A program made the translations under genes and the position numbers. The notes beneath the pieces are model-generated. The model searched no databases and was not told where the DNA came from. It saw only the letters and a program-made list of their open reading frames with translations. A stretch of 28,731 nt of DNA from a virus: IMG/VR virus record IMGVR_UViG_3300006802_000394, positions 1 to 28,731 of that record, one strand, 5' to 3'. Numbering within the stretch: position 1 is the first letter of the stretch; every line of letters begins with the position of its first letter. Below, piece by piece: positions 3,365 through 27,164 of this stretch.

Positions 3365-4726
3365 ATGAGTAGAAATCGAATCATTACACAATCTGAAGCT
3401 CTTTATGTCGGACCTTCTCCGGCCACGGGTTATCATTTTACTCTTACTGCGGCAGAAAACCAAAACGGCTCTATTGCTGGATTGCCCTCTGGGGTTCCAG
3501 TTAATTACGGCTATTCTGGATCGGCTGAAGCGGGTGAAATTCATTTAAAAAGTGCAACCTATACAAACCTCACCGATTCTCTTAGTGGATTTATGGGTCA
3601 AGGCGGCTCCAATACTTTGAGCGGGGTTACGCTCGTAAACAAGATCAAACAACTTCACCGTGTCCAAGGATACTCCCATGACTTCTCCCAGTCTAGGACT
3701 GACGTAAACCAGCTTGGTCAGCTTGCTCGCATTGATTCTATCATCACTTCTACGCCGATTGTTAACCTTTCTTTTTCTTACCTTCTTGCGAATATGGCAA
3801 ATGAAGAGGCGCTTGGTTTTGTAGTGGATGGCTCAACGAGCGCCCTCACAAACATCATTAACAATAATGAAGAAGAGAAAAATTATTTTATAAAAACTGT
3901 TGCTGAAGGAGTGGATGCAATTGGCGGGGGCGTAAGTGATTCAGCCACAGATATTATCGGAATTGGAAATGGTTTTATTACCTCTTACAGTTCTGAGGCG
4001 TCTGTCGGAAGTTTTCCTACGGTGAATGTTTCTGTTGAGGCAGTTAATCAAGAATTCATGACAGGGGCATCTGGTAATTTCATCCCCGCTATTAATCCCG
4101 CTAACGGTTCTAGAATAACAGATACTCAAAACGATTATAATTCTACAATTAAATTTGATTTACCTGCTGCGACCGAGAATCCATCCGGTATCTTGACGGG
4201 CGTTGCTGATATTTCCGTTTTGCGCCCTGGCGACATTACGATTACATTCAAAAAGCACGGTTCTCAAAATGACTACGATGCATTTGGTGCAAAAATTGAA
4301 GAATCAACTGCCAAACTGCAATCCTACAATCTATCCATCAACCTTTCTAGAACGCCAATTGAAAAACTGGGAAGCAGATTTGCATTCACTAGAGAAATTG
4401 ATTTTCCAGCCCCAATCACATTGTCGATAGATGCAATCGTCGATAATATTCGAACTGGCGGCCTTGTTGATAGAATGGATTGCGATGAAGAATACGATGT
4501 AACAATCAATATTAAAGATCCTTCGACTTGTAATGGTGCCAGCAATTCTCAGGTTGATGTAGCCAAATATGTTCTCAAGAAACTTACATTAGATTCTCAG
4601 TCATACTCAGCCTCTATCGGCTCGAACAAAACTGTCACTATGGACTTCTCTACTCAAGTTCAAGGGCCAAATCAGACTGGCGTGGGTATTTTCATGTCCG
4701 GTAGATTACTGGATGATGGTGTATAA
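3365..4726 (+). CDS. probable major tail tube protein
   Basis: A 453-residue beta-rich protein without signal peptide, in the major-tail-protein slot before the chaperone-slot genes and tape measure. Two tube-like halves can be seen. The first, about residues 97-150, has VQGYSHDFSQSRTDVNQLGQ followed by a strand ending in LSFSYLLAN. The second, about 317-365, has LSINLSRTPIEKLGSRF and ITLSIDAIVDN. A closing segment (about 401-432) contains LTLDSQSYSAS and TVTMDFSTQV. The same order of motifs recurs in the proteins at 21894-23522 (minus), 25315 and 26187, which suggests paralogous tube-like folds. A terminator directly after the gene fits a strongly expressed, separately transcribed structural gene. 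At 453 residues it is longer than the lambda gpV (246), consistent with a two-domain subunit. The assignment rests on position and fold pattern, not on a named family match. Confidence 0.7.
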   Translation: MSRNRIITQSEALYVGPSPATGYHFTLTAAENQNGSIAGLPSGVPVNYGYSGSAEAGEIHLKSATYTNLTDSLSGFMGQGGSNTLSGVTLVNKIKQLHRVQGYSHDFSQSRTDVNQLGQLARIDSIITSTPIVNLSFSYLLANMANEEALGFVVDGSTSALTNIINNNEEEKNYFIKTVAEGVDAIGGGVSDSATDIIGIGNGFITSYSSEASVGSFPTVNVSVEAVNQEFMTGASGNFIPAINPANGSRITDTQNDYNSTIKFDLPAATENPSGILTGVADISVLRPGDITITFKKHGSQNDYDAFGAKIEESTAKLQSYNLSINLSRTPIEKLGSRFAFTREIDFPAPITLSIDAIVDNIRTGGLVDRMDCDEEYDVTINIKDPSTCNGASNSQVDVAKYVLKKLTLDSQSYSASIGSNKTVTMDFSTQVQGPNQTGVGIFMSGRLLDDGV

Positions 4727-4765
4727 AAAAACAATAAATAATAATAACTAACCAAACAAACGTAA

Positions 4766-4801
4766 CGGGGGCAGCGTTTCAAAATAAATGCCCCGCTTTT
4801 T
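4766..4801 (+). terminator. intrinsic terminator after the tail tube gene
   Basis: CGGGGGCA at 4766-4773 pairs with TGCCCCG at 4789-4795 with one bulged G, around a 15-base A/T-rich loop, and is followed by CTTTTT. It lies 40 bases after the tube stop codon. It should end much of the transcript coming from the tube gene. Confidence 0.7.
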
Positions 4802-4808
4802 AAAAATG

Positions 4809-4828
4809 ATAGACACCGGAATGTCTAT
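4809..4828 (+). other. perfect 7-bp hairpin between terminator and next gene
   Basis: ATAGACA (4809-4815) and TGTCTAT (4822-4828) are exact inverted repeats around the hexamer CCGGAA. It follows the terminator by only a few bases and lies 40 bases before the gene at 4870. A weak A/T tail follows. It could be an operator, an RNA processing or stability hairpin, or a second weak terminator. No choice can be made from sequence. Confidence 0.4.
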
Positions 4829-4869
4829 TTATAACAAAAAAAATAAGTAACAAGGAACAAGGAAATGCA

Positions 4870-5085: not shown

Positions 5086-5146
5086 TTTTAAAAAATAGTT
5101 GACTTTTCCTTTTTTCCCATTAAGTTAATTAAGAAGATTTATATTT

Positions 5147-8872: not shown

Positions 8873-11800
8873 ATGGCAGTTAATGATGTTACAATTCAGG
8901 TTGGCGCAGATATCAATCCGGCTGTAGGGCCGTTAAGAAAGGTTGAGGAGTCTTTAAAAAGAATTCAGGCTAGTGCGTTTAACTTAAAATTAAATCCGCG
9001 CAATTTTAGCGAACCCCTTGGAAGAATCACTGGGCAAGCATCTGAATTTGAAAAAAGCATGGGTGCGGCCAATGCGAGAGTGATCAGTTTTGCCGCGTCT
9101 GCCGGTATATTTTTTCAAGTAACAAGGTCATTAAAAGAAACTGTTCGTGCTGCCGTAGAGGTTGAGAAGTCCCTCGCTGATATTAATGTCATTTTAGACA
9201 AAGATACTAAAACTTTAAATAAATTTGGAAAAGAGCTGTTTAAGGTTGCCTCCAGCACAGGCCAGTCATTCGGGGTTGTGGCCGAGGCTGCCACTGAATT
9301 GGCCCGTCAAGGTTTAAGTATAACAGAAACTCAAAAAAGGGTAAAAGATGCTCTTATTTTAACTCGCCTTTCTGGAATGTCCGCTAAAGATTCTGTCGAA
9401 TCTCTTACTGCGGCCCTCAACACGTTCAAAGATGTTGGCTTAACATCTAGTCAAGTAATTAACAAATTAGCCAAGGTTGATGCGGCATTTGCAGTCAGCA
9501 CAGGGGATTTAGCAGAGGCATTAAAGCGTGTTGGTTCTACCGCTCAAGATGTAGGTGTTACATTTGATCAATTAAATGGCTTAGTTGCTTCCTTGCAACA
9601 AACTACAGCAAGGGGAGGCGCGACAATAGGAAATAGTTTGAAAACAATCTTCACCCGTATTGGTCGCCCCGAAACATTAAGACAATTAGAGGCACTTGGG
9701 CTTTCTGTAAGGGATGCTCAAAAAAATACTCTTCCAGCAGTTCAAATTTTAAAACAATTAGCGGGGGTATACGGTTCCCTTTCCGATGCTCAAAAATCAG
9801 ATATTACACAAACTGTGGCCGGTGTATTTCAAAAGAACATCTTAATTGCAACATTAAAAGATTTATCTAGAGCAAATAGTGAATATGAAAGGGCCACACT
9901 AGCTTCAGCGTCAGCTACGGACGAAGCAAATAAAAGAAATGAAGAATTAAATAAAACTTTGTCGGCCCAGACCCAAAGATTATTAAATAATTTCAAACAG
10001 GCAGGATCAGCTCTTGGCGGCAATATTTTCGGCCCTTCAATCGGAACAATTTTCGGAGGTTTAAATAAAGTTCTGGAATCCGGTGACTCAAGTAACCAGT
10101 TTGTCCAAGCTGGACTTAGAATTGGAGATGACTTAACTAAAGGAATTGGAAAAGCTCTTACGGGCCCTGGACTTGCAATATTGGGAATATTTGCAAAAAA
10201 TGTATTAGGACAATTTTATACATTTTCTAAAGACGTTGTCAAAGAATTGAAAAACATGGGGACGGCAGCCCAATCTTTCGCGAATATAGAAAGAAACATA
10301 TCTAACATCTTAACAAGCCAACCAGATATTCTAGCCAGAATCGCCAAAGGACAAACGAATATAGCAGTGGAAGCTGCAAAAGTTACAGAGCAGCTTCTTG
10401 CCCAAAGAAATATTCAAGCTGCAATTGCCGGAACCGCACCCGCAATGGCAAGGTCTGTTGCGGCTCAGGCTGGCGGTATAAAGAACTTTGGCTCAACTGG
10501 CAGTTTAAAAGTTATGGGAGCTGCTGGCGGAGTCCCGCAAATGTTCGGCTCTCTTGGCGGAGCTATCAATAATGAAATTAGAGCTGGCATCCCAAGGAGC
10601 GCTATTAGAATTAATTCCTCATCTGCTTTGGCTACGAGATCCAATCCTGCTGGTTTAGCGGTCACAAATATCAAAGATGAGCCGATGGGATTAAGGAGTC
10701 TGGGAATTCCTAATTTTGCAGGTGGAGGCCAATTTGTTACAACAAAAGGAACGGTCGGTGGTAAATTAAAACTAAATAGACAAGAATTAGACCAATTAGA
10801 AAGCGCTTTAAACACATTAAAAAAAGAAGGTAAATTCCTTTCAGAAACATTTTCTCAATTGAGAGGTTCTGTAAAATCAAAAAAGGGAAGCGGAACAATA
10901 TTTAATGATTTGATTAGGGACGCCAGACAAGGCTTTATCGGCGGACCAGACGTTGTCAATCCTTATGCTGCTTCGAATGTTTTGGCGGGAAAAAGTGGCG
11001 TCAGAGTCGCTGACCCAAGGATGCTCCCGGTTTTAGCGTCTTCTGTAACCAACCCATTTAAACAACAGCAACAATCTTTATTATATTCTACGGGTCAATT
11101 TATTGGGCCTCAAATGCCATCTCCTTTTGAAATGTATGGAACGGGATCTATGTTCGGCCCAGCAATTCCGACAGCGGGACAAAGAAGAATGGGCAGTTTA
11201 AGAAAATTTGGAAGAAATATAAAATCTGGTGCCACAAAATTTGGGGGAAAGTTTTCAAGTGGCAAGGGAATGGGGGCAGCCTTTATAGGGTCTTCCCTTT
11301 TGTCTACCGCCGCACCAGAATCCAAAATAACATCAGTAGCAAACATGGCCATAACAGGAGGCATTCTCGGCAGTATGTTTACTCCTCTTGGCGCAGCGAT
11401 TGGGACAGCGGCAGGTGGATTACTCGGGCTTGCCATGTCTGCTTCAAAGGCCGAAAAGGTATTCTCCGAATTTGAGGTAAAATTAAAAGAAAATACAGAA
11501 GTTCAGGGAAATATAGCTAGAGATTTATCTGATTTATTTTCCACAGAACAGGTTGGACCTAAGAAGTTTCAAATATCCGGTCAAGGAACGGGAAGGCTCG
11601 GAATGGGTTCTGTAACAGATATAACTAAGCAAAGATCATTTTTGACAGACCAATCCAAGGCCGACGCCGCAAACCAAATTTTTAACTTACTTGGTGGCGG
11701 AGGCATACAAGACCGACAGCAGTTAATTAATCTTGCAAGATTCTCAGTTTCCGCAGGTGGAATCGGCTCTGCTGGAAAAGACCCTGTAAAAGCAATAGGC

Positions 11801-13969
11801 AATTTAACAAAGTATTTGCCGAAAGATCAGGCTGCAAACGTTAGATTTGGGCTTTTAGGATTGGGAGAAGATAAAATGAAGCAAGTTTTTTCTCCAGAGG
11901 TAATGTCCATTCTTGCTGAAAGATTTAGAGGAAAAGCGGGAGGGATGAGTATTGGAGGGGGAAATATTCCATTAGATTTTACAGCAGCTTCACTAATGAT
12001 GGGTCAAACCGCAAATCTTCAAAATGTTGCATCAAATGCAGCTATACAAAGGGGCGCGGCAAGTAAAATATTCGATTTACAATCAAATTTTAATCAAAGA
12101 GGTTTATTTGGTAATGAATTATTTAATGCTCGATTTTCAGCAAACAAGCAAGGGATTGCAAATCAACAGATTTCCGCAAATGAACAAGCACTGTATTCGA
12201 GAGAGATTGCAAAAAGGTCAGCTTTTCAAAATGCTGCCAAAACTTTAAATAGAGCTGGCTTTGGTGGAGAACTAGATATTTTCAAAAAGTTAATGTCCGG
12301 TGGAGAGACCCAAATAAAAGAATACTCAAAAGACGCAACAGAAGAAAATAGAAGAACTTTAGATGGTCTCGGTAGAGAGCTTTTACAAATAGAAGAAAAT
12401 TACAACTCAGCGAGAGAAAGAGCTGCCGAAACTGCTGTTGCAGACCTCGAAGTTGCAAGAAAAACACTTGAATTAAAAAAGAAAGAATTTGAAACTGAAT
12501 TACAAATACAAAGAGAACTTCAACAAAAAACAGCATTAAGAAATTTTAGAGACGCAAGAGGTCAATTCGCCAGAGGTTCAATTGGCGGCGCTGCATTAGC
12601 CGGAGCTGCACAATCTTCATTAGATGCGAATATTGCGGCTAGAGGTTTTCGCCGTTCTGATTACGGGACTGGATTCAATATTGCTATAAGAAGAAATTTT
12701 CAACGTAACGATTATGACGTTTTTCAATCCACAATAAGGGCCGTAGATGACCTCAGTGTCGCCCTAAAGGATGGTTTAACCACAGCAATAGCAGATACAG
12801 TATTACAAGCCAGAAGTGCGAGAGAGGCCTTCTCTGGGCTCGCAAATGCCCTTTCACGAATAGCTCTCGAACGAGGGCTCGATATGTTCATGACAGCCGC
12901 CATGTCAAAGATTAATTTTGGTGGAGTTCAAAAATTTGCAAAAGGAGGTTTAGTGAATGGGGGGTCATCCGCCAATGTTGATACTGTCCCAGCAATGCTA
13001 ACTGGAGGTGAATTCGTATTAAGAAGATCAGCAGTAAATAGAATTGGTGTTAATAATTTAAATGCAATTAATAGCGGGGGATTTGCCGGACTGCAAAGTG
13101 GCGGTTATGCCAATATCAACTTAAACAATTCAACTGATTTTCTTGGAAATCCTAGCAGACCGACAGGGATGCAATTTAATATTGACCCGTCACTTTCCGC
13201 ATTCGCTCTAACCTCCTCTATGAATCGACAAAATCAAATTAGAGATCAAAAGGCTAAACAATATTTCTCATATAGGAAAAATCAACTCGCAGCTATGGCT
13301 GCATATAAAAAACAAATTCGAGGAAGACGATATGGGGCTTTAATTGGCGCTGCTACAGCATTCGCTGGAGCTGGGATCAGCTCTATGGGCGGAATACAGG
13401 GAATGTCTGCCGCTAATGCCGGAACTGGCGCTCCAAGCGGACTGGGGGCAAGTGCAGATTATATTAATGGGCCACAGCTCATGATGGCAAATTCTGGCGG
13501 CTCAATCCCCTCAATATTAACAGGTGGAGAATTTGTAATAAATAGCCAAGCTGCTTCAAGAATGGGTTCTGCCAATTTGGGCAGATTAAACTCTGGAGGA
13601 GCATCGCTGGGATCAGGGTCTTCCATCGGCAGCCAAGAAAATGGAGCTGATAGAGTCGTCGAAGCAATTAAAGAATTAAAATCTATATTCGATAACAAGA
13701 ATAGTGGAAATTCATTCAAACCATCTCAAGTCAGTCAAAATTCTGGCGGCCCGATTTCTGTTACTGTTCCTGTATCAGTAAATGTAACTTCAGTCGGGGC
13801 CGAGACAGCCCCTAAGTCCGACATGGAAAACTCCAATGCTACAGAAGAAGCTGATAGTCGCCAAATGATGGCGAAGCAGTTGGGAGAGACAATTCGTGGA
13901 AGTGTTCTTCAGGAGTTGGAAAAACAGCAACGCCCAGGCGGTATGTTGTATAAGATGCAAAATAGGTAA
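8873..13969 (+). CDS. tape measure protein
   Basis: A 1698-residue protein that sets tail length and is threaded through the tube. Residues about 70-330 carry the TP901-type minor tail/tape measure core (VEKSLADINVILD, then ATELARQGLSITETQKRVKD, GMSAKDSVESLTAALNTFKD, ARGGATIGNSLKTIFTRIGR). The middle has long helical and Gly/Ala-rich stretches, with a hydrophobic segment at about 820-865 (ITGGILGSMFTPLGAAIGTA) that may insert in a membrane. A coiled coil lies near 1160-1225. The C-terminal part has two copies of the phage motif LTGGEFV (near residues 1377 and 1548), each after a Gly-rich stretch and before a RxGxxNLxxxNSGG block. By the usual rule of about 0.15 nm per residue, the tail would be near 250 nm, an inference only. 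The ATG has AAAGGA directly upstream. A terminator follows nine bases after the stop. Confidence 0.95.
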   Translation: MAVNDVTIQVGADINPAVGPLRKVEESLKRIQASAFNLKLNPRNFSEPLGRITGQASEFEKSMGAANARVISFAASAGIFFQVTRSLKETVRAAVEVEKSLADINVILDKDTKTLNKFGKELFKVASSTGQSFGVVAEAATELARQGLSITETQKRVKDALILTRLSGMSAKDSVESLTAALNTFKDVGLTSSQVINKLAKVDAAFAVSTGDLAEALKRVGSTAQDVGVTFDQLNGLVASLQQTTARGGATIGNSLKTIFTRIGRPETLRQLEALGLSVRDAQKNTLPAVQILKQLAGVYGSLSDAQKSDITQTVAGVFQKNILIATLKDLSRANSEYERATLASASATDEANKRNEELNKTLSAQTQRLLNNFKQAGSALGGNIFGPSIGTIFGGLNKVLESGDSSNQFVQAGLRIGDDLTKGIGKALTGPGLAILGIFAKNVLGQFYTFSKDVVKELKNMGTAAQSFANIERNISNILTSQPDILARIAKGQTNIAVEAAKVTEQLLAQRNIQAAIAGTAPAMARSVAAQAGGIKNFGSTGSLKVMGAAGGVPQMFGSLGGAINNEIRAGIPRSAIRINSSSALATRSNPAGLAVTNIKDEPMGLRSLGIPNFAGGGQFVTTKGTVGGKLKLNRQELDQLESALNTLKKEGKFLSETFSQLRGSVKSKKGSGTIFNDLIRDARQGFIGGPDVVNPYAASNVLAGKSGVRVADPRMLPVLASSVTNPFKQQQQSLLYSTGQFIGPQMPSPFEMYGTGSMFGPAIPTAGQRRMGSLRKFGRNIKSGATKFGGKFSSGKGMGAAFIGSSLLSTAAPESKITSVANMAITGGILGSMFTPLGAAIGTAAGGLLGLAMSASKAEKVFSEFEVKLKENTEVQGNIARDLSDLFSTEQVGPKKFQISGQGTGRLGMGSVTDITKQRSFLTDQSKADAANQIFNLLGGGGIQDRQQLINLARFSVSAGGIGSAGKDPVKAIGNLTKYLPKDQAANVRFGLLGLGEDKMKQVFSPEVMSILAERFRGKAGGMSIGGGNIPLDFTAASLMMGQTANLQNVASNAAIQRGAASKIFDLQSNFNQRGLFGNELFNARFSANKQGIANQQISANEQALYSREIAKRSAFQNAAKTLNRAGFGGELDIFKKLMSGGETQIKEYSKDATEENRRTLDGLGRELLQIEENYNSARERAAETAVADLEVARKTLELKKKEFETELQIQRELQQKTALRNFRDARGQFARGSIGGAALAGAAQSSLDANIAARGFRRSDYGTGFNIAIRRNFQRNDYDVFQSTIRAVDDLSVALKDGLTTAIADTVLQARSAREAFSGLANALSRIALERGLDMFMTAAMSKINFGGVQKFAKGGLVNGGSSANVDTVPAMLTGGEFVLRRSAVNRIGVNNLNAINSGGFAGLQSGGYANINLNNSTDFLGNPSRPTGMQFNIDPSLSAFALTSSMNRQNQIRDQKAKQYFSYRKNQLAAMAAYKKQIRGRRYGALIGAATAFAGAGISSMGGIQGMSAANAGTGAPSGLGASADYINGPQLMMANSGGSIPSILTGGEFVINSQAASRMGSANLGRLNSGGASLGSGSSIGSQENGADRVVEAIKELKSIFDNKNSGNSFKPSQVSQNSGGPISVTVPVSVNVTSVGAETAPKSDMENSNATEEADSRQMMAKQLGETIRGSVLQELEKQQRPGGMLYKMQNR

Positions 13970-14781: not shown

Positions 14782-14782
14782 A

Positions 14783-17700: not shown

Positions 17701-18382
17701 TATCTTTATCAATGATTTCTGTATAACTTAAAGAGTTAATTCTAACATTAACATCAAAGGCGACAATATTTTTATCATAATAACGATAGACCTTTCTATT
17801 GATTATTGCGGCATCCTGATCCCTTGCATAAAGTTTATCGTAATCCCCTCTAAATTTATCAAAGCGCTCGTTACCGTCAACTAAAACATCAGTCGGCATA
17901 CCATCATTACTAAAATTATAATTTGGCCCCAACATTTGTTCACCAATTTGTTTAGTAATTGTCAGCTCATCATCGAAAATGGACTCAGCGCCAACTCCGG
18001 TTGCGCCCATTGGGGTGCCATTTACAAATTTAAATCGAATATTACTAAAATTATACTTATCAGAAGAATCTAAAATTGGGACATTATTATAATAAACTGA
18101 TCTTAGAACCCCTGAATTAATATTTGTTCCCGATAAAATGCCATCATTGTAAGGAATAAATTCAGCTTCAGCCCAACCAGTTCTTCCAAGGTATCCACCA
18201 TGCATTCTGTAATAGCCAGAGACTAGACCTTGCATCGGTCCTTCGCCCAACAAATCTAATACTTCGATTTTTGTCTTAGAACTTGAACGCGCATAATTCC
18301 CTGCGACATTTACTGTTACGCCTTCACTTTCTATAACTGGCTGGCGAACGTCGCCTCCCTTTCCAAATCCTTGAATAATCAT
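14783..18382 (-). CDS. J: gpJ-like central tail tip / host specificity protein
   Basis: The open frame allows a TTG at 18394, but the ATG at 18382 gives MIIQGFGKGGDVRQP, in line with the Gly/Lys-rich start of the family, so I chose it (1199 residues). The N-terminal region has KIEVLDLLGEGPMQGLV and VYYNNVPILDSS, typical of gpJ proteins. Near residues 393-440 is PAWTFYDILTNKRYGVGNYI followed by LYQISQYCNGLV. Near 566-610 is RLGKWILTTERTETETVNFQ and YRPGDVIKIFDEN, the tube-closing domain. The rest is beta-rich, fibronectin-like in feel (IFRWNLDYDTQFKLDDNIYN), and carries the receptor-binding part at the C-terminus. The lambda protein is 1132 residues, so the size fits. It lies directly after the gpI-like gene. 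No good ribosome site is seen, so coupling to the upstream gene is likely. Confidence 0.9.
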   Translation of the reverse strand: MIIQGFGKGGDVRQPVIESEGVTVNVAGNYARSSSKTKIEVLDLLGEGPMQGLVSGYYRMHGGYLGRTGWAEAEFIPYNDGILSGTNINSGVLRSVYYNNVPILDSSDKYNFSNIRFKFVNGTPMGATGVGAESIFDDELTITKQIGEQMLGPNYNFSNDGMPTDVLVDGNERFDKFRGDYDKLYARDQDAAIINRKVYRYYDKNIVAFDVNVRINSLSYTEIIDKDKYGDNLSYYIDYVIKVRPIFKNEDKSSLFSYETVKDVSLKGKVTTSPFLQSDRIEVDDFSEQSDFLAWELEIIRKTADAIHPAVTCNATVDSITQIYNQTFRYPNSAMASNLYDAEFFSEVPETSYDVEMLKVKVPDNFDPITRSYDGDWDGTFSTEKKWTSDPAWTFYDILTNKRYGVGNYIDEDLVDKWSLYQISQYCNGLVRDGYAPSESPYSGLEPRFETNVYLAQQDDAYQVINDLASVFRGMTYYIGGSIDVSQDAPKDPRFILTNANVVDGNFVYSSSSKKSRHTVALVRYNDKLNNYNPAVEYIEDPEGIRKYGLVQRDVTAIGCASRGQAFRLGKWILTTERTETETVNFQMGMEAQYYRPGDVIKIFDENKTKKRYSGRTLKTEIYDYPNASGAVITLDRKIPLHNYETYKFSLATPTYSYESSLVNKSSDFNSTNISGLKRGAIQEIYFTGGPTTISHNNGLTTMYFTGDSYTGAGMNQFNTGEYSVTNNLIFAIEQSGNIADNCEFELYKVIRVEEQDSSLYNIFAMQHNSGKFDIIETGLSFESSISAKNIGAPTINTIFYDEGECKLSFVIKKGENNRHIVMYARRDGEVFSTTVLPDSSLQTSLTAIDSNDETVIIDYNLFGDNVDYDFAFWGTDGASFSNNGATYSSLSNGQTYSAIGCASSVCNFKVYSLRGKCQAGNASATDSTYIYEGTNPIFRWNLDYDTQFKLDDNIYNNYETRLTYYEPDVVTVANGKLEENGAEIYRRANYGIAFDGEIVFTMGENVLGHNNRSEYPKIGPFRSYDLVVDVIDKNSKKSSRDCNDEGFDVLSVKNPPPEVVTDINEYINDYTYTYPRGIVTFDFSSVDFEANKDYRGYIFYYKNQEFTQSDIETDLTINYHIKYFNNQYEKNTLQSVSFRNAGANLYGGIVLLDSFDQEAEKQVEAIAGTAYIDKGSYYRSIIPTSERLTTIQQLTRTN

Positions 18383-18398
18383 AATATCAACCAATTAA

Positions 18399-19058
18399 TT
18401 AATAACAGTCAACAACATCTCCATTGTCAGTCTTATAGGAAACTTTAAAACTCGCAGCAACTCGATGAGAGCCAATTCTCAATTTCCCATAACCCACTTG
18501 AACTGGACGACCCTCACCTATTACATTAGCTGGGCCACTAAATAAATATGATTCAGACTGAGATTCCAACTCAGGGGTTGAAGGTGGTTTTGAAAGCAAA
18601 TTTGATATTCCAGCGGCAAACATTCCTAAACCAGCTACAAACATTGCTGGACCCCAAGGTCCGAGGGCAGCAGACGCAACAATCGCTACAACCATCAGGA
18701 CCGCTCCAACGACTGTTAATAAAGCATCAAATGCTTTCCCACTGCCTTCAATAACTGGCACAATATCTAATGTTTTAATTTTTCTTTTTATTGTCAAAGA
18801 GGAGTTTTTAACTTTTGACAGGTCGTCTTCTAATCCTTCATTGTTTTTGTAAATTTTATTATTAATGATAATTTTATAGCGCGCCTGTATTTTATTCTTT
18901 TGATAAAGAATGTTCGTTAGGCCATTTTTGGTTAAAGCGTCAATCGCTCGGACTGCCTCGCCAACAGATTTTACCGACAAATTCCACTCTTTTTTTAATT
19001 TCTTGCTGAGAAATCCATGAAGTCTAATTTTTGTTAATTCTTTTTTCTCTTTTTTCAT
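18399..19058 (-). CDS. I: gpI-like tail assembly protein
   Basis: A 219-residue protein, close to lambda gpI (223). The N-terminal part (about 10-95) is a ubiquitin-like fold: IRLHGFLSKKLKKEWNLSVK, then VGEAVRAIDAL and an alternating region. The middle (about 110-160) is the family's hydrophobic Gly/Ala stretch (LLTVVGAVLMVVAIVASAAL, then GPWGPAMFVAGLGMFAAGI). The end has SYLFSGPANVIGEGRPVQVG and YGKLRIGSHRVAASF, a near-diagnostic gpI signature. It helps gpJ assembly and is not thought to stay in the virion in lambda. Its ATG overlaps the TGA of the gpK-like gene (ATGA), a common K-I coupling in this family. Confidence 0.9.
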   Translation of the reverse strand: MKKEKKELTKIRLHGFLSKKLKKEWNLSVKSVGEAVRAIDALTKNGLTNILYQKNKIQARYKIIINNKIYKNNEGLEDDLSKVKNSSLTIKRKIKTLDIVPVIEGSGKAFDALLTVVGAVLMVVAIVASAALGPWGPAMFVAGLGMFAAGISNLLSKPPSTPELESQSESYLFSGPANVIGEGRPVQVGYGKLRIGSHRVAASFKVSYKTDNGDVVDCY

Positions 19059-19807
19059 TTTTTTAACCTCAATATTGAGTATGCTTTTTGTTTTATTTTG
19101 CCGGAATCAACTAAGTGCTTTAAAGATTGAACTTTTGAAACAGAAAACGAAGACTGTCCAAGAAATTCTCCTTTCCCAATATAAACCATTGCATGACAAG
19201 CTGGTATAATACCCTTTTCTTTAAAAAGTAAAACATCATTAACTTTTAAATCATTCACTTCATAAAAATCAAGGGAGATGAAGTAATCTTTCATTATATC
19301 CTTAAACTCCTCTTTATTATAGGGACTGCTTGGCATATCTGTATAAGAAAGCAATCTCAAATCAAAAAACTTTTTATCTTTTAGGGTGATATTTAAATTT
19401 TGTGTGTAATAATCCTTTACCAATTCAATACAATCCAATGTGCCTAAAATAAATGGGCGGCCCAAAAGAGGGATTGGCTTATCACTAGGAGAGTAAAAAC
19501 AGAAAGATTTATCTAATAAAGAGAATATTAGCCCCGATTTTTTTATTTTTTTGGCAATTAATTCATCTTCTCTAGATGGAACTGAAGTTGAAAATGGATG
19601 GGTATGATAGGTGCAATAAATATTATCTTTAATTGGCTCAAGTTGTTTTGGATCTATTAAAAAATGCACACCCCTTTTATTTGATATGTTCCTACATGGA
19701 AATACTGTCCCGTCATTGAGAATCACGCCACAAATCTCCTCATAAGGATTTAAAAAAGCCAGTCCTTTAATGATTTCTTTTTGTTTGGTGAGGGTTTCGT
19801 CAATCAT
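19055..19807 (-). CDS. K: gpK-like tail tip hydrolase: JAMM + NlpC/P60
   Basis: A 250-residue protein from the ATG at 19807. A TTG at 19828 could add seven residues and has AAGGA very close, but the ATG gives the N-terminus expected of the family. Residues 1-115 are a JAB/MPN domain with the full JAMM set: Glu24 (EEICG), His68-Thr-His70-Pro, Ser78 and Asp81 (HTHPFSTSVPSRED), the zinc site of an isopeptidase-like fold. Residues about 118-235 are an NlpC/P60 peptidase with Cys126 (LGTLDCIELVKDYY) and His205 (ACHAMVYIGKG), the likely nucleophile and base for peptidoglycan stem-peptide cleavage. Such proteins assist tip assembly and entry. It lies between a stand-alone JAMM gene and gpI, and overlaps gpI by four bases. 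Confidence 0.88.
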   Translation of the reverse strand: MIDETLTKQKEIIKGLAFLNPYEEICGVILNDGTVFPCRNISNKRGVHFLIDPKQLEPIKDNIYCTYHTHPFSTSVPSREDELIAKKIKKSGLIFSLLDKSFCFYSPSDKPIPLLGRPFILGTLDCIELVKDYYTQNLNITLKDKKFFDLRLLSYTDMPSSPYNKEEFKDIMKDYFISLDFYEVNDLKVNDVLLFKEKGIIPACHAMVYIGKGEFLGQSSFSVSKVQSLKHLVDSGKIKQKAYSILRLKK

Positions 19808-19817
19808 AATGTTTTTT

Positions 19818-20183
19818 CTAAAGGCCAATCTTCCTTTTTATATCTTCTGATATTACTTTACAAGGGTCTACAATAAAAATTTGATCTTTTGACATAATGT
19901 AAACAATATTAAAATAACCAGTAAGTTCAGAATAGTAATGATCGAATTCAGATGGTTTATCTAAACAATTTTCAGTATGAGAGTGGTAGATTCCAATTAC
20001 TTTGCCGAGATTTTCTGCCAAAATAAAGTCGTTGGCTGAAATTTCAAAATCTGTTTCTGGGGTTTGATGAACGTTAGCGCAGGGGAAATAAAGAAGGCTA
20101 TCGCCTTCACTTCTCATTATAAAAAGCCCACATGATTCAACTTTGGGTGCTTTTAAACAAATTTGCTTGATTTTTTCAATCAT
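19818..20183 (-). CDS. stand-alone JAMM/MPN-domain tail tip protein
   Basis: A 121-residue protein from the ATG at 20183 (a TTG one codon earlier is in frame, less likely). It is one JAB/MPN domain: Glu16 in VESCGLFI, then GIYHSHT with His67 and His69, Ser78 and Asp81 in KPSEFD. The gap between the second His and the Ser is eight residues, where seven is usual, so the zinc site may be slightly altered. It resembles the N-terminal half of gpK and stands directly before it, so the operon has two JAMM proteins in a row. It could be a gpK duplicate, or a part of a split gpK. It has its own TGTAAAA leader with AAGGTATAAGG and a spacer of nine bases to the ATG, which suggests strong separate expression. 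Confidence 0.85.
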   Translation of the reverse strand: MIEKIKQICLKAPKVESCGLFIMRSEGDSLLYFPCANVHQTPETDFEISANDFILAENLGKVIGIYHSHTENCLDKPSEFDHYYSELTGYFNIVYIMSKDQIFIVDPCKVISEDIKRKIGL

Positions 20184-20223
20184 CAATTTTTTCCTTATAC
20201 CTTTTTTATTACTATATTTTACA
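20184..20223 (-). promoter_or_regulatory. TGTAAAA leader inside the minus-strand tip operon
   Basis: On the minus strand TGTAAAATATAGTAATA starts one base after the gpL stop codon and is followed by AAAGGTATAAGG and the ATG at 20183. The AGGTATAAGG part is identical to the leader at 24688 on the other strand. An internal promoter and strong ribosome site for the JAMM, K, I and J genes is likely. Confidence 0.45.
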
Positions 20224-21312
20224 CTACCTCTGTCCTAGCTTTTCTGTCCCAGCAAAGCCTCCAAATGGATTTTCTGTTGCGCCATAATGCAGTTGGCACG
20301 CTTTAATATCTTTCGTGCATTGATCGGCTTCCCAAAAGAAGTTGTTTGGCGGTGGTGTATTTTTGGGGACCGCTTTTTTTGCAACAAAATAATAGTTGAT
20401 TCCACCTTTTGTTATATAAATAAATTGTGCCTGTAAATACTCTTCGTCAGAATCGTATTCCCCCTTATCATAATCGAGTAATTCAACATCACTTAAATTA
20501 AAATAATTAATTCCATAAAGTTCTTCAAATTTTGTCCCTGCTTCATTTGTTACCGGAGGGGCATATCCATTTCTTCCTAGATATTTCTCAATAACACCAT
20601 CATGAAGTTCTGAAAGTCTACTCGGTCCAGAAACCCTAGAATTTGAAAATTCGTAACAACACCCTGTCCCTCTGTAATTAAAAGAGCATCTATTTGCGAA
20701 TATAAGTCTGGATGGCAATTTTATATTTTTTAGGTCAAAAATAGAATTCAATTCATATTTTAGGACAAGTTTACTCTCCTCAACCTTTCTATCTACATAA
20801 TAGATTTGTGGGGTAAATTCATTGTTCGGAGACTCTTCATAATCATCAGGCTTTTTCCTTCCCGCAAAATTAATTTCATCAATAAACTTTAAAAAAGTTC
20901 TTTTTATTGTAACTTTGGCCCCGACAAGGTCTCTCAGGCTGGCAATTTGGCATTTTAACAAAGATAAGGCGGCGCTCCCTTCCTCGATTGTGCTTAATGT
21001 TAAAGTTGGAGTTGGGAGAGTTCCAGAGCCAGTTATCTCCAACCCTTCTATCATTATAGGAAGGGCGTAATATGTATTGCCTTGAAAAACAATATTGCTG
21101 TTAATTAGATTGATATTGTTGTGAAATCTAAAAATTTTAATTTGCTCCTCTTGTAGGTTATTGCCAGTTAAAGATGCTAGTTTGCCATCTTCGAAAAGAA
21201 TATCAGTAAGATCAATTTCTATAAATGTTAATATTGGAGATGGCTGTAGTTTTGCGGACTCAGCCTGAACCTGCTTAACGGATGTTTGTGCTTGCGTTCT
21301 TGTTAAAGTCAT
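20224..21312 (-). CDS. L: gpL-like minor tail protein with Cys cluster
   Basis: A 362-residue protein; lambda gpL has 232. Residues 1-205 resemble the family's N-terminal domains, with ILTFIEIDLTDILFEDGKL and a KCQIASLRDLVGAKVTIKRT stretch. The Cys residues that hold a 4Fe-4S cluster in lambda gpL are visible as Cys209, Cys218 and/or Cys219 (RCSFNYRGTGCCYE), Cys332 and Cys339 (CTKDIKACQLHYG), followed by the family ending FGGFAGTEKL. About 110 residues (220-330) are inserted between the Cys pairs. They end in YYFVAKKAVPK...FFWEAD, like a small carbohydrate-binding-type module. It acts as part of the tip ring next to gpM. It starts five bases after the gpM-like gene. Confidence 0.85.
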   Translation of the reverse strand: MTLTRTQAQTSVKQVQAESAKLQPSPILTFIEIDLTDILFEDGKLASLTGNNLQEEQIKIFRFHNNINLINSNIVFQGNTYYALPIMIEGLEITGSGTLPTPTLTLSTIEEGSAALSLLKCQIASLRDLVGAKVTIKRTFLKFIDEINFAGRKKPDDYEESPNNEFTPQIYYVDRKVEESKLVLKYELNSIFDLKNIKLPSRLIFANRCSFNYRGTGCCYEFSNSRVSGPSRLSELHDGVIEKYLGRNGYAPPVTNEAGTKFEELYGINYFNLSDVELLDYDKGEYDSDEEYLQAQFIYITKGGINYYFVAKKAVPKNTPPPNNFFWEADQCTKDIKACQLHYGATENPFGGFAGTEKLGQR

Positions 21313-21316: not shown

Positions 21317-21883
21317 TTATTGTAATATTAATTCATAGGGTTCCGGTTTAACTTGATTGAATGTAGCTGTAATGTCAAAGTGTTCTCTTTTTAATGATGT
21401 TACTTCCCATTCTTCGCAGGTATACATTTTTTTGGCCTTGAAAGGTTTCGGCGGCTCAAAAATAAACGCTTCAACCCCACTCCTTTCATGAAGAAAGTGA
21501 ATAATTGCATTTGTTTCAAGCAAATCTCTCGTCATAAATTTGAATTGGTAGCTATTTAAATTGGTGTTGATTCCGTCTTGGGATCGATGCTCGATGCTGA
21601 GACCAAATCTTGCAATTTTTAATCTGGGCGACTGAATTAAAGTTGAGCCATAAGACGCTTCCCAAATAAAATACTTTTTGGTTACATTGTTTAAGGTTGT
21701 TTCTCCTTTTGACCATTTCGTAGTATCGTATGATGATGATGTTATGTCACTACTTTCTCGATTGTGGTCTTTAAGGGCATAATAATAAATGAATGAGTTT
21801 TTAGGATATTCTACAATTTCATTTTTTTTGAATGAACTTTTAGATCCCCAATATTCTATGTCGTAAATTGATGGTTGACTCAT
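21317..21883 (-). CDS. M: gpM-like minor tail protein (tip operon copy)
   Basis: A 188-residue protein. The N-terminal 75 residues (DIEYWGSKSSFKKNEIVEYP, then FIYYYALKDHN and TTKW) resemble a small carbohydrate-binding-type domain with spaced aromatics. Residues about 80-188 are the gpM core: ARFGLSIEHRSQDGINTN, then ETNAIIHFLHERSGVEAFIF, then CEEWEVTSLKREHFDITATF and a closing NQV. Lambda gpM has 109 residues, so the N-terminal domain is extra. It forms the ring between tube and tip. A clear paralogue is encoded on the other strand at 24727-25308. It lies five bases before the gpL-like gene and ten after the tube-like gene, in operon spacing. Confidence 0.85.
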   Translation of the reverse strand: MSQPSIYDIEYWGSKSSFKKNEIVEYPKNSFIYYYALKDHNRESSDITSSSYDTTKWSKGETTLNNVTKKYFIWEASYGSTLIQSPRLKIARFGLSIEHRSQDGINTNLNSYQFKFMTRDLLETNAIIHFLHERSGVEAFIFEPPKPFKAKKMYTCEEWEVTSLKREHFDITATFNQVKPEPYELILQ

Positions 21884-21893: not shown

Positions 21894-23522
21894 TTAACTT
21901 CCTGCTGAAAATTCAAAATGATATACGCAATCTTCGTATTGGTTACTTTCTTGAGATAAAATTTTAACACTTCCATTATTACTACAAAGTTCTAAATAAC
22001 TAAGTTTGACTTTTCCTATACATTTACACGTTGGTATATTGTAATAAATAGACGTTTCTTCTGAAATTGTAATAGAATCTTGGTCGTAAGATTGCAATAA
22101 AACTCCATCTGTATTAAAAAGCGATATAACTATCTGATTATATGCCGTGCTTGTGCAAAAATTTCCGTATTTAACTATTATGGTTACTATAGATGGATAG
22201 CTGCCATCATCACATAAAAGCGGTTGAGACTTGCTCGGGGTTGGGCTCGGCGTCGGAGTTTGACTAGATGTTGGCGTAACGCTAGGAGTGTTACTCGGGG
22301 TTGGAGTGTTGCTTGGGGTTGGGGTCACGCTGGAGCCTGGGCTACTCGTAGGGGTCGGTGTCTGCGTCGGGGTATTAGATGGTGTATTACTAGGAGTATT
22401 TGATGGGGTATTACTTGGAGTTGGTGTATTCGACGCTGAATTTGACGGCGACGCAGAATTTGATGGTGTCGGAGTGCAAATCCCTCTCCCACAATACAAA
22501 TCACTTAAACATTCAAAGCAATACTCTTCATCTTCTCCAATATTATCATAAATATCATTCAATCCGGTATTTAAAATATTTGCCACCCCCGATGTATTAA
22601 TATTACCAGCATTGTAATGAGAATAATTCGGCATAGCTGGTTTTGCCAGTAAATTTGAATCTAATTTTTTCAAAAATGTTCTGTAATTAACAGAAGCAAT
22701 GATGTTCCCCTCTGTCGTTGCTGAATAACTTTCTGCGGTCAACCTCATTCCAGAAAAAGCGTAACTAATTAATGTGTCATGGGTTTGATATTGTTTTAGA
22801 TTAAGTGTTAAATTTTCAATTTTCTCCTTATAGGGGGTTTGGCGCATTCTTGAAAAGTCGTAATTGTCAATTTCGACATCCAGTCCTAAATTTATTTCCA
22901 ATGGATAGTTAATTTCTGTATATTTAGGTATCCTGCTACCAAGGATATAAAAGCTATTTCTATTGATATTATAATTTAATTCAATAGATTGCACTCGATT
23001 TGTATTGAAATCATCAAGAGAAATTTCTATAGACCCAGGGTCAATAATTTTGTAATTTCCTGTATTATACAAATTTTTGGAATTGTTTGTTAATTCGTTT
23101 AGAATTTGTTCGTCCCCACTTCCAATTGGGCCAAAATCACCCAAAACAGAAAAAGTTGCATTAATTTCAATTGGATTATCGATTGAGGCTCTCATTCCAT
23201 AATTTGTCAAATAACCACTTTGAAAAGTCAATGTTTCTTCAGCGCTTCCGTTTTTTGGCATTATATAACCATTAACACCCTGCTCCCCCGAATATTGCAA
23301 TAACACATCAGGACCAACCGCTATAGTTGAAATATTAACGGTCCCAATTTGTGGGCCGATTGGATGCTCAACAATTTCCTGTTGCTGCATCCCCAAAAAC
23401 TTTATATTTTCCTTATTAGAAGTCCATGAGGTTGAAATAGATTGAACTCCACTCAACAGATTTTCACCCAAAAATACAAATGCGTCCCTTTTATCTTGCC
23501 TTCCGAAAGTATTTGTTATCAT
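21894..23522 (-). CDS. tail-tube-like protein with Thr/Pro/Ser linker and Cys-rich C-terminal domain
   Basis: A 542-residue protein in three parts. Residues about 22-285 repeat the two-domain layout of the probable tube protein at 3365: [20 protein letters not shown], a strand ending [15 protein letters not shown], then [20 protein letters not shown] and, at 259-283, [15 protein letters not shown]...VNYRT. Residues 350-434 are a low-complexity linker of TPTPSN-type units, framed by Cys-containing segments ([16 protein letters not shown] before). Residues about 435-542 form a beta domain with six Cys ([27 protein letters not shown]). The first part probably sits in the tube or tip ring; the last hangs outside as a decoration or binding domain. 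First structural gene of the minus operon. No Shine-Dalgarno sequence is seen; coupling with the endonuclease gene five bases upstream is possible. Confidence 0.75.
22221..22475 (-). repeat. coding TPTPSN repeat tract
   Basis: About 85 codons repeat short units such as [13 protein letters not shown] and TPTSS. At DNA level the 9-15 base units (on the plus strand variants of GGAGTATTAC, GGTGTATT and CTCGGGGTTGG) are similar but not identical. The tract encodes an extended, flexible, exposed linker. Copy number could change by slippage or unequal recombination. Confidence 0.85.
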
Positions 23523-23526
23523 AATT

Positions 23527-24615
23527 TTATTTTAAAACATTATTCAAAATGTTTATTATATTCTTTTTGTCAAAATAAGGGATTCTTAATAATTTTATGT
23601 TATTATTTTTACACCAATCATTTTTAATGTTATCTTTTGTTTTTATATCTTTTAATTTATCTTTGCCTCCGAAATACTTTACAGGTTCAAAATGTTGTTT
23701 TCCGTCATATTCTATTAGGAGATTATAGTTTGGAAGATAAAAATCAAATTTTAATCTACGTTTAGTTTCTATATTTATACAGGTTTTGAAGGTTTTTTGC
23801 TCCTTGAAATTTATATTATTTTTTTCCAAATAATTTCTTATCATATTTTCACCAGTAGAGCTGGCGCATTTTAAACACCCACTCCCTGCTAAATGACAAG
23901 TTGGAGTTTGCTCAAATATTCCGTGCTTTTTGCAAATTATCTGAACTTTTACATTACATCTTTTATACTCAACCGGTGAATAGTCGTATTTATCATCGTG
24001 AATTTTTTTGGCATCTTTAATAAAACGCTCTTTTGTTGAAAATTTTCCAGAACAAAACCGACACCTAACTCCCTTTATATGATTACTTGGAGTCATAAAA
24101 AACTCACCGTGATCCGGACAAAGTATCTTAATTTTTGTTGAGTAATTTACATAATCAACCAAAGAGTAGTCATACTTATCCCCATGAACTTTTTTGGCTC
24201 TTTTTATAAATTTGTCATTATCTAAATACTTCTTATTACAGATTTTACATCCCTGTCCTTGAAGGTGTTTAAATGCCTTCTGGCGGAATGCGCCATGCTC
24301 TGGACATAGTATCGTTACGTAATCATGGCATTTTTTGTATACAGTTAATTCATAATTGTATTTATTTTTGTGAATTTCATTAGATCTATTGATAAAATCA
24401 TCGTTTGCAATAGTTCTTTTTTTAAAAGAGCATTTTTTACATCCATTCCCCCTGATGTGTGCCATCGCATTTTGAAAAAACTCTCCGTGAATTTTACATA
24501 CAATTTTCACGTTTGACCTCATATTAACATACTGACTATCTGAATAATCGTATATATTGCCATGTTTCTTTACAGATCTCTCTACAAATTCTTCTTTTGT
24601 TATCTTTTCTGACAT
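23527..24615 (-). CDS. zinc-ribbon-repeat endonuclease with PD-(D/E)XK-like C-terminus
   Basis: A 362-residue protein. Residues about 1-245 are four repeats of about 60 residues, each with [20 protein letters not shown], a C-x(2)-HG pair and a C-x(2)-C ribbon. They are of the same type as those of the 643-residue protein at 1379. Residues about 250-362 look like a restriction-type nuclease: [14 protein letters not shown] (Glu), [15 protein letters not shown] (Asp), [11 protein letters not shown] (Glu...Gln) and a C-terminal [14 protein letters not shown]. The nuclease part differs from the EDxHD type of the other gene, so similar DNA-binding arrays carry two catalytic ends. It stands upstream of the tip operon, at the divergent control region. 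AAAAGG-AAAAAGGA precedes the ATG. Probably a mobile intergenic endonuclease; a repair or exclusion role cannot be excluded. Confidence 0.8.
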
Positions 24616-24650
24616 TCCTTTTTCCTTTTACCGTATTATTTAACCTTAAA

Positions 24651-24680: not shown

Positions 24681-24687
24681 CCAACGG

Positions 24688-24726: not shown

Positions 24727-25308
24727 ATGGCAATTCCAAACTGGGAAAATGATAAAAATTATAAGAAGTATGATATAATTGAAGAACCGGATGGTTCAAA
24801 TATCTTTTATTATGCTACTTTTGACCACAATTCTTCATTGTCTGGATCAAGTGGTTCAAGTGGAGCTGCTGGAACATTTTATACAGATAAAGTAAAATTT
24901 GCGGGAATTTTGGAGGTTAATGGTGAAAAAATCCCTCATTTCTTTTGGAAATCAGATTATAACACTCGATATTCCGTCAAAACCGAAGTAAAGAAAACAA
25001 AATATGGCGACGGCTATGAACAAAGAAGTAAGGCAAACTTCGATAATATTCTTTTAAACTTGGATTTAACCTTCTCCAACAGAAGTTACAAAGAGGCTGT
25101 AGCGATTTTACATTTCCTAAATAGGCGCAAAGGATATGAGCAGTTTATTTTTACTCCTGAGTATATTTATACAACCTACAATTATTCTTCTCCTTTGAGA
25201 TGGATTTGCAAAGAGTGGACCCACTCCCATCAATTTGACGAAAATAATGTAATTAAAGCGACCTTTAACCAAGTTCCAATCAATGGAAAGTTTGAAATAA
25301 TAAGGTAA
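24727..25308 (+). CDS. second gpM-like minor tail protein
   Basis: A 193-residue paralogue of the protein at 21317-21883. The N-terminal domain has NWENDKNYKKYDIIEEPDGS and FYYATFDHNSS, matching the other copy's YWGSKSSFKKNEIVE...YYYALKDHN. A Ser/Gly loop (SGSSGSSGAAG) follows. The gpM core has KTKYGDGYEQRSKANFDNIL, AVAILHFLNRRKGYEQFIFT, CKEWTHSHQFDENNVIKATF and NQVP. The KYGDGYEQR start is closer to the general gpM family than the other copy. It is the first gene of the plus-strand operon and is followed six bases on by a tube-like gene. It may act in a second ring of the tip or in an alternative tip. Confidence 0.82.
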   Translation: MAIPNWENDKNYKKYDIIEEPDGSNIFYYATFDHNSSLSGSSGSSGAAGTFYTDKVKFAGILEVNGEKIPHFFWKSDYNTRYSVKTEVKKTKYGDGYEQRSKANFDNILLNLDLTFSNRSYKEAVAILHFLNRRKGYEQFIFTPEYIYTTYNYSSPLRWICKEWTHSHQFDENNVIKATFNQVPINGKFEIIR

Positions 25309-25314
25309 GATATT

Positions 25315-26172
25315 ATGATATATTGGGATAATGTAGATGTTATTATTGGAGGAAGCACGGGTATAATGGCCGACGGCGCATCATTTTCTTCTAAAAATTC
25401 TTTAACCCCAGTTTATTCAATAGGAAATATTGGAACTCATAGTATTACCCCGAATGGCCCAATCACCAATGAATTCTCATTTTCTTACTCACCTTTGGTA
25501 AATGGAGATCCTAATTTTGACATAGCGAATGGAATTAAAGAACTGACCAACCATTTGTATACCGGAGTAACTATAGAGGTGAATGGAATAACCGGTTTTG
25601 ACTGTAGATTAAAATCACTCTCCTATCAAATTAGACCAAATGATATTGTCAGAGCTAATGCAACTTATGAAAGTTTTGTCAATACATCTGGCAATGCTTT
25701 TGCAAACCATTCTTACAGTGGGGATTATAAAAATAAGAATGACATAGCGCATGGATGGACAACATATTTTAACACCCAATCAGATTATTTTGAAGCGCCG
25801 ATTTATAATCTTTCTTATAGTTTTGAAGCGAATTTCTCTCCAAGGTATACATTGGGACGAAAAGAGGCGGCGCAAGTTTCTTTTATGTCTGCAACGGAAA
25901 GAATTGATATAGATCAAGATACATATTCCCCAATTCAATTTTCTGGAGAAGATGTTTTTACATCACTATTGGTAAACAATACTTCTGGATTGGATTTTAT
26001 GACATTGAATATTGTCGGCTATTCAGAATATGATACTGGAGTTAAGCCATTTACTGGAGATTATACTAACATGACCATCAATTTGTCAGGAATGAAAATA
26101 GCACAATCCAATGTAGATGCTAAAATAAACGATATTCTTGCCAATAAATTATCATTGATTAAATACTTTTAA
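25315..26172 (+). CDS. tail-tube-like tip protein
   Basis: A 285-residue protein, beta-rich, without signal peptide. The first half has the strand pattern seen in the tube-like group: DGASFSSKNSLTPVYSIGNI, then NEFSFSYSPLVNGDPNF, then RLKSLSYQIRPNDIVRANAT. The second half, residues 162-200, has PIYNLSYSFEANFSPRYTLG followed by RKEAAQVSFMSATERIDID, matching LSRTPIEKLG...REIDFPAPITLSIDA of the probable tube protein. It lacks the long loops of the 453- and 542-residue members, so it may be the minimal form. Spacing of six and 14 bases to its neighbours places it in one operon with the second gpM-like gene. A distal-tail or tube-initiator ring is a reasonable guess. Confidence 0.7.
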   Translation: MIYWDNVDVIIGGSTGIMADGASFSSKNSLTPVYSIGNIGTHSITPNGPITNEFSFSYSPLVNGDPNFDIANGIKELTNHLYTGVTIEVNGITGFDCRLKSLSYQIRPNDIVRANATYESFVNTSGNAFANHSYSGDYKNKNDIAHGWTTYFNTQSDYFEAPIYNLSYSFEANFSPRYTLGRKEAAQVSFMSATERIDIDQDTYSPIQFSGEDVFTSLLVNNTSGLDFMTLNIVGYSEYDTGVKPFTGDYTNMTINLSGMKIAQSNVDAKINDILANKLSLIKYF

Positions 26173-26186
26173 TTTTTAAAAAAAAC

Positions 26187-27164
26187 ATGCAATATACCTT
26201 CAGAAACGCAGAATTAAAGTTTAATGATAAGAGCATACTTGCTGATAGTGTTAATTTTTCACTCAATGCCCCGATTGAAGGTGTTTTTAGAGAGGGCGAG
26301 AAGAATTCGTATGATTTTGCACCCGTAAACGGAAATGATAACTCTCTGAGTGTTAGTTATTTGCTAACTGGTAGTGACCCAATTAAAGAATACGTGCATC
26401 TTGAAACAGGTTCCATATCTGGATATTTCGGCGGCCTTTATTTTCAAAGTGGTTATTTAACAAGTTATTCATTCAATGCAAACCCAAATCAGCCAATTTC
26501 AGTAAATGCCAATTTAAAATTCTTTGAACCTTTAACTGGAAACTTCGTTCCCTCAGAAAACACCGCCACCGATTACAAAATATTAAACATTGCTGACGTT
26601 TCAGTTACAGGAACTTCATTGGGGAGTTTAGACGACATTGATTCTGTTTCATACTCTTTTAATCAAAACATTGTCCCACAGTATATCATTGGAGAGACAA
26701 AGCCGCGCAAAATTCTTTTTGAAAGCAAAGAAATTTCAATGAATATTAATGGAGCGCATATTACTGGAAATTTGCCGCCACAAGGAATTTGGGCCGACTA
26801 TCAAATAACATTACAACATCCAGAAATTAGCTCATTGAGTGAAGTTTATTTTGTCAATGGAAAAATAATGAATAGATCAATAGAAACGAGTGCTGGCAAT
26901 GAAATAAAAACCAGTTTAACAATAAAGCAAAATTATACCAAAAAGCGCCCGATTATTACATCTATTTCAAGGTCAACGATTTACGCAGGACAACAACTCA
27001 ATATTTATGGCCGCAATTTATTAAATGTTGAAAAAGTGCTTTTTTGTATTAACGGGGAAACGATACCAAGAAAAGAGGCGACCTTTACAATAGGATCGGA
27101 TACTGTTATAAGAGCCGTTGCTCCAGCAGGTGTCAGTCGAGGACCAATAGAGTTAAGACCATAA
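26187..27164 (+). CDS. tail-tube-like protein with C-terminal IPT/TIG domain
   Basis: A 325-residue protein. Residues 1-240 follow the tube-like layout: ADSVNFSLNAPIEGVFREGE, LSVSYLLTGSDPI, SGYLTSYSFNANPNQPISVN, then SVSYSFNQNIVPQYIIGETK and ISMNINGAHITG. The SGYLT-Y segment matches the same place in the 542-residue protein. Residues about 250-325 are an IPT/TIG (immunoglobulin-like) domain: ITSISRSTIYAGQQLNIYGR, then NLLNVEKVLF and VIRAVAPAGVSRGPIELRP. The fusion links a tube ring to the adhesin-like TIG array of the next gene, which begins 13 bases downstream after AAAAAGGA. It may be the anchor that ties the TIG fibre to the tail. Confidence 0.78.
   Translation: MQYTFRNAELKFNDKSILADSVNFSLNAPIEGVFREGEKNSYDFAPVNGNDNSLSVSYLLTGSDPIKEYVHLETGSISGYFGGLYFQSGYLTSYSFNANPNQPISVNANLKFFEPLTGNFVPSENTATDYKILNIADVSVTGTSLGSLDDIDSVSYSFNQNIVPQYIIGETKPRKILFESKEISMNINGAHITGNLPPQGIWADYQITLQHPEISSLSEVYFVNGKIMNRSIETSAGNEIKTSLTIKQNYTKKRPIITSISRSTIYAGQQLNIYGRNLLNVEKVLFCINGETIPRKEATFTIGSDTVIRAVAPAGVSRGPIELRP

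Follow-up and report, generated by a model that had tools for sequence, protein, structure and literature searches.

How many versions of its tail tube protein does one virus encode, and where would they sit in the virion? The question was raised by a stretch of 28,731 bases, the uncultured virus record IMGVR_UViG_3300006802_000394 (the window hereafter). A reading made from the sequence alone had noticed one ordered motif set in four of its proteins, and had proposed that a two-domain tail-tube architecture was duplicated to make more than one kind of ring, or a long tip. All four open reading frames were present where that sequence-only reading had placed them. We refer to the product of the gene at 3365 as tube, and to the others as tipA, opB and opC, names that were coined in this analysis. 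The four genes and their parts are as follows.

3365..4726, plus strand: tube, major tail tube protein, 453 aa, upstream of the tape measure gene (model and relatives)
Residues ~90-255 and ~285-446 of tube: its two tube domains
21894-23522, minus strand: tipA, whole gene, 542 aa
22623..23522, minus strand: tube-like part of tipA, residues 1-300 of 542 (profile matches to tube, opB and opC)
22203..22490, minus strand: low-complexity S/T/P/N linker of tipA (TPSNTPS...), residues ~345-440 (sequence)
21894..22202, minus strand: C-terminal domain of tipA, very variable (comparison of close relatives)
25315..26172, plus strand: opB, predicted tube-like ring protein, 285 aa, without an extra domain (AF2 and Foldseek)
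26187-27164, plus strand: opC, whole gene, 325 aa
26187..26940, plus strand: tube-like part of opC, residues 1-251 of 325 (profile matches to opB and tipA)
26949..27134, plus strand: C-terminal IPT/TIG domain of opC (Pfam PF01833, 1.7e-4, above the curated cut-off)

Sequence Homology of the Four Proteins

Blastp without profiles, run as one-against-one searches, linked tube with tipA (E-value 7e-10), opB with opC (2e-9), tipA with opC (3e-7) and tube with opC (1e-4); tube–opB and tipA–opB were not significant. We then compared family profiles with hhalign. Homologues for these were collected from viral contigs, about 185 in the case of tube and 12 loci in that of tipA, and further records were searched individually. 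High scores were found for tube–tipA (probability 99.3%, E-value 1.5e-20), tipA–opB (98.0%, 1.8e-13), tipA–opC (98.4%, 5e-15) and opB–opC (99.7%, 3e-27). The direct tube–opB and tube–opC comparisons were not significant (<9% probability), and thus tipA is the bridge that joins tube to both. The negative set consisted of 88 pairs made from the tail-tip proteins gpM, gpL, K, I and J, from p466 and p14011, from two genes of the tube-to-tape-measure interval, all belonging to these same phages, and from reversed profiles. It peaked at 5.4% probability, against 98–99.7% for the true pairs. The profile–profile comparison that had been proposed for this locus thus linked the four proteins as a connected set, for which the controls ruled out chance or compositional similarity.

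The profile alignments were colinear and long, and the motif blocks first picked out by eye fell in register. Among them are an N-terminal block, which includes VQGYSHDFS... and ADGASFSS..., and a mid block (VNLSFSYLL/VNISTIA/FSFSYSPL/SVSYLL). Blastp, profile comparison and this register all agree with the ordered motif set that had been described. A stronger common motif, (S/N)G(F/Y)(I/L)T(S/N)Y(S/G), was absent from the original list. At the level of sequence, these comparisons show the four proteins to be homologous and built on one two-domain unit.

Other searches were less productive. Single-sequence hhalign without relatives was too weak for most pairs of the four. When the four core proteins were searched singly against PHROGs, Pfam and cultured phages, only the TIG domain and low-complexity sequence gave matches. 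A profile search of PDB sequences gave no convincing tube match; the sole match of opB was the phage 812 tail tube (E-value 0.32).

Two-Domain Architecture and Predicted Structures

When the tube profile was split, its domain 1 matched its domain 2 (3e-7, 93%; reversed controls ≤1.4%). Between paralogues, domain 1–domain 1 and domain 2–domain 2 matches were mostly stronger than 1–2 matches, so the fusion of the two domains most likely preceded the gene duplications. For opB–opC, the E-values were 1e-22 for domain 1 and 2e-8 for domain 2. Domain 2 of opC was the most diverged, matching opB but, taken alone, not tipA.

We built two AlphaFold2 (AF2) models from non-overlapping alignments. The tube model, made from 60 tube sequences, had a predicted local distance difference test score (pLDDT) of 77 and a predicted template modelling score (pTM) of 0.79. 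The opB model, whose input alignment was restricted to opB and opC and contained neither tube nor tipA, had a pLDDT of 64.8 and a pTM of 0.71. Foldseek found nine PDB matches to opB below an E-value of 0.001, and all nine were two-domain tube chains (3.5e-7 to 7e-6), from T5 pb6, the T5 p140 type, SH-Ab15497, DT57C and P74-26. The first nine matches of the tube model were the same nine chains (6e-11 to 4e-9). The best of them was the T5 chain 7qg9_G (6e-11), which was also the second best match of opB. We take this chain as p140 from its length (298 aa, as in the T5 gene beside pb6) and from the published structure (PMC10038345). A search of predicted viral structures showed that two-domain tube-like proteins are common in viruses.

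The proposed two-domain tail-tube architecture is therefore upheld by the profile comparison, by the internal repeat of tube and by two independent models that match two-domain tube proteins. It had been expected that structure prediction would give two tube-like domains in all four proteins. The models of tube and opB agree with this; for tipA and opC, the fold would follow from homology to the modelled tube and opB.

Gene Neighbourhood and Distribution

The genes tipA, opB and opC are located 17–22 kb from the tube gene, together with the gpM genes. The tip set of the window is of the lambda type, with gpM twice, gpL, K, a gpI-like gene and J in order (by Pfam, and by position for I).

8873..13969, plus strand: tape measure protein (PF10145, 2.7e-31)
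14783..18394, minus strand: J-like central tip protein (PF13550, 1.5e-24)
18399..19058, minus strand: probable gpI-like protein (cluster position, conserved beside J in relatives; no Pfam match)
19055..19828, minus strand: K-like protein, JAB and NlpC/P60 (PF14464/PF00877, slightly below the curated cut-offs)
20224..21312, minus strand: gpL-like hub protein (PF05100, 1.7e-35)
21317..21883, minus strand: gpM1, distal tail protein, Phage_min_tail (PF05939, 7.8e-19)
24727..25308, plus strand: gpM2, second distal tail protein paralogue, first gene of the opB–opC operon (PF05939, 1.2e-17)
27177..28731, plus strand: IPT/TIG-repeat protein just 3' of opC, running off the window; probable fibre or surface protein

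In about a dozen uncultured phages, J-I-K-gpL-gpM and tipA-opB-opC occupy opposite strands and diverge from one shared point (the loci with the divergent cluster are L128, L142, L150, L151, L152, L156, L157, L158, L162, L163 and L032). At seven loci, tipA alone lies beside gpM and diverges from it (L153, L155, L159, L160, L161, L164, L165). We counted carriage over 50 tube-bearing records, three of which had been recruited through tipA. A separate full-length tipA was detected in 30 of the 50 with the tipA profile, and opB/opC in 16 with the opB profile; opB and opC were adjacent in 12. TIG domains were found in 10 of the 16 records with opB/opC and in none of the 34 others (Fisher's test, p-value 8e-7, relatedness ignored). 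The protein at 27177..28731 gave a 97% profile match to the opC-TIG family through the common TIG domain, and L010 carries a 748 aa relative.

The number of tube-type genes also varied. Besides tipA, opB and opC, the genomes G016 and G020 each carry three tube-type genes, which makes six. Two or three adjacent tube genes occur at L114:9992-13911 and L118:7421-15383. Further tube-type paralogues lie far from the tube gene at L140:8535-9881, L144:9571-11364, L145:9084-11519 and L033:18444-19754; three of these four form one clade, and in G016 such a paralogue is near the terminase gene. The gpM gene is duplicated as well: gpM1 and gpM2 fall into separate clades within the lineage of the window, and each of G020 and G021 has a gpM pair of its own. 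Tube relatives at L124 and L166–L167 (G067) belong to a Flavobacteriaceae metagenome-assembled genome, the only bacterial contig found, which gives a weak hint of Bacteroidota hosts.

Duplication History and Selection

We calculated a quick tree from 82 sequences; its branches are long, and it was rooted at the midpoint only. Support is given as Shimodaira–Hasegawa-like approximate likelihood ratios (SH-aLRT). Clades were obtained for tipA (97), tube (94) and opC (97), and opB formed one clade but for one long-branch row. opB and opC were sisters (99), and tipA joined tube and the extra tube copies (99). Every paralogue clade covers the same range of phages. The split is therefore older than those phages, and the duplications are old and the copies have been kept. 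That the tube subunit was duplicated, as the sequence-only reading had suggested, is thus supported by profile homology, by the internal repeat of tube and by separate paralogue clades across many phages.

Strong purifying selection was observed on opB and opC, whose ratios of nonsynonymous to synonymous substitution rates (dN/dS) were both 0.085 between the window and L003. With tube included the range was 0.085–0.093, the tube estimate being near saturation. The tipA gene is a mosaic: in the same comparison and among close relatives, residues 241-420 were near-identical (98–100%), and the C-terminal 120 residues were 20–40% identical. Such variability would be as expected of an exposed outer domain. 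In L004, an apparent one-base change in length interrupts opC (L004:5291-6264), which is otherwise near-identical and is intact in L002; the interruption could be a sequencing error.

Comparison with Known Tail Systems

The closest precedent is T5. In its tip, the pb6 rings are followed by a p140 trimer and a pb9 hexamer, and the collar and side fibres are placed on p140 (PMC10038345). p140 is attributed to duplication of pb6, to which it is 9% identical, and p140 and p132 have been called a landmark of T5-like phages only (PMC10038345). Like the window proteins, p140 (298 aa; also in DT57C and other T5-like phages) has the two-domain tube fold without an immunoglobulin (Ig) domain. However, T5 has one extra trimeric ring, placed between tube and distal tail protein and encoded beside the tube gene, whereas the window has three proteins encoded with lambda-type tip genes, and these are still related to each other in sequence.

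Orthology by sequence with T5 p140 or pb6 was rejected, as no profile match was found (hhalign of p140 against tube, tipA, opB and opC gave ≤0.5%). Nor are tipA, opB and opC directly downstream of the tube gene; in T5-like records, p140 is next to pb6. The window proteins are best read as the extra-ring solution of T5 occurring outside the T5-like family, multiplied and without detectable sequence kinship to T5.

Other systems share parts of the arrangement. The major tail proteins of T5 and P74-26 are trimeric and form pseudo-hexameric rings (PMC10034513, PMC10038345). T5 pb6, P74-26 and SH-Ab15497 have two fused tube domains like the window proteins, a similarity of fold only, at about 10% identity. 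In the lambda tip, a gpM hexamer is followed by gpL and gpJ, and this hexamer, whose subunit has the tube fold, lies as a ring between tube and hub (PMC10721106). Lambda has the same gpM-gpL-gpK-gpI-gpJ gene set as the window. However, its tube protein gpV is single-domain and hexameric, and gpM is its only additional tube-like ring, whereas the window also encodes tipA, opB, opC and another gpM. In T4, gp54 (with gp48) provides one or more tube-like extra rings between tube and baseplate (PMC10038345), but T4 is contractile and gp54 is not a two-domain siphophage tube protein. Both T5 p140 and T4 gp54 are precedents, with one extra ring. We found no description of the tube/tipA/opB/opC gene set in the open-access papers searched.

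Proposed Model and Alternatives

We consider it probable, taking the explanation as a whole, that fused tube domains and gene duplications gave rise to extra distal pseudo-hexameric rings with extras particular to each ring. Two tail-tube beta-sandwich domains were most likely fused first. Whole-gene duplication then produced a tube/tipA lineage and an opB/opC lineage, and each split again before the present carrier phages diverged. Three subunits would form one pseudo-hexameric ring, as in T5 pb6 and P74-26. Copies of the 3365 product would stack to enclose the tape measure protein as the tube. Beyond the last tube ring, and before the gpM/gpL/J tip is reached, tipA and then opB and opC would form one or a few specialised distal rings through the same contacts of long loop and sandwich. 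The extras would set the job of each ring: tipA with its linker and fast-changing outer domain, opB bare, and opC with IPT/TIG domains, probably anchoring the large downstream TIG-repeat protein as side fibres. This role may be likened to that of the T5 p140 ring, the base for the side-fibre collar.

Ring formation, position, order and stoichiometry are drawn here by analogy with known tails; given T5 p140, it would be natural to read the copies as making separate rings or a longer tip, as had been suggested. The gene neighbourhood and the TIG association are consistent with a p140-like, collar-bearing ring. We are less sure, at slightly under an even chance, that a large group of uncultured phages builds a fixed series of at least three distinct two-domain tube rings (tipA, opB and opC, with up to six tube-type genes per phage), each a platform for a different surface decoration, on a lambda-type tip. 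If true, this would be a graded multi-ring adaptor described in no cultured phage. Overall, the arrangement would be an expanded variant of a known principle, in which the tube fold is reused for tip rings.

Several points weigh against this explanation. The confidence of the opB model is moderate (pLDDT 65), and the Foldseek template modelling scores (TM-scores) are modest (~0.4–0.65), with a high root-mean-square deviation over the whole chain, so that a common fold and domain count are shown but not close similarity. Domain 2 of opC alone matched domain 2 of tipA weakly (10% probability). The T5 p140 and pb6 profiles matched none of the four proteins in sequence. The TIG association takes no account of relatedness, and some of the TIG domains sit within opC itself.

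The most serious alternative, which we regard as unlikely, is that opB and opC keep the tube fold but form an outer collar or side-fibre base around the tipA ring, so that only tube and tipA line the channel. This would suit the co-occurrence of opB and opC and their absence from many phages in which tube and tipA are retained, the TIG domains of opC and its TIG-repeat neighbours, and the undetectable direct profile similarity to tube. However, both tube domains remain recognisable in opB and opC, the best superpositions of the opB model are with tube proteins that form rings, and the T5 collar protein p132 has an Ig fold and not a tube fold (PMC10038345).

Two further possibilities are very improbable. 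The tipA operon and the gpM2-opB-opC operon might be alternative tips, each with its own gpM, for different particles or conditions, as the two gpM copies of the window and close relatives, one per divergent operon, would allow. But the right-hand operon is without its own gpL, K, I and J, one gpM serves the tipA-opB-opC cluster in more distant phages (L128, L142, L150, L151), and the genes measured are under purifying selection. To much the same small degree, one or more copies might form a head-proximal, terminator-like ring. Tail terminators have the tube fold, and a further tube paralogue lies away from the tail genes in some relatives (L140, L144, L145) and near the terminase gene in G016. 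Pfam searches of the neighbours of the G016 copy gave TerL and ribonucleotide reductase, and no tail function. However, in every distant relative seen, tipA has gpM and gpL as neighbours, and opB/opC accompany tipA where present. Finally, it is hardly credible that beta-rich, low-complexity sequences converged on this similarity: the abundance of S, N, T and G strands in tail proteins makes motifs found by eye unreliable, but nine other tail families and the reversed profiles stayed far below the true pairs, whose alignments are long and colinear.

The duplication model of the tube rings matters for two reasons. The duplication origin of the extra ring in T5 is visible only in structure, whereas here the steps are still legible in sequence, and some phages have only tube and tipA where others have the full four. 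Comparisons can thus test how tail-tip rings, and the anchoring of fibres on them, arose. The model also assigns likely identities to formerly unannotated proteins of a widespread group, of which searches of cultured phages found no member.

Other Features of the Window

The genes at 23527-24615 (minus strand) and 1379-3310 (plus strand) are paralogous endonuclease-like genes with repeated Cys-containing, DUF723-like modules. The former appears to be inserted between tipA and gpM2, and the relative L003 lacks it at that place. Two paralogous HNH-like endonuclease genes without a Pfam match, at 7357-7860 (minus strand) and 7965-8801 (plus strand), lie between the p6332 gene and the tape measure gene. 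At 19055-20186 (minus strand), a stand-alone JAB gene accompanies the JAB domain of the K-like protein, a possible partial duplication.

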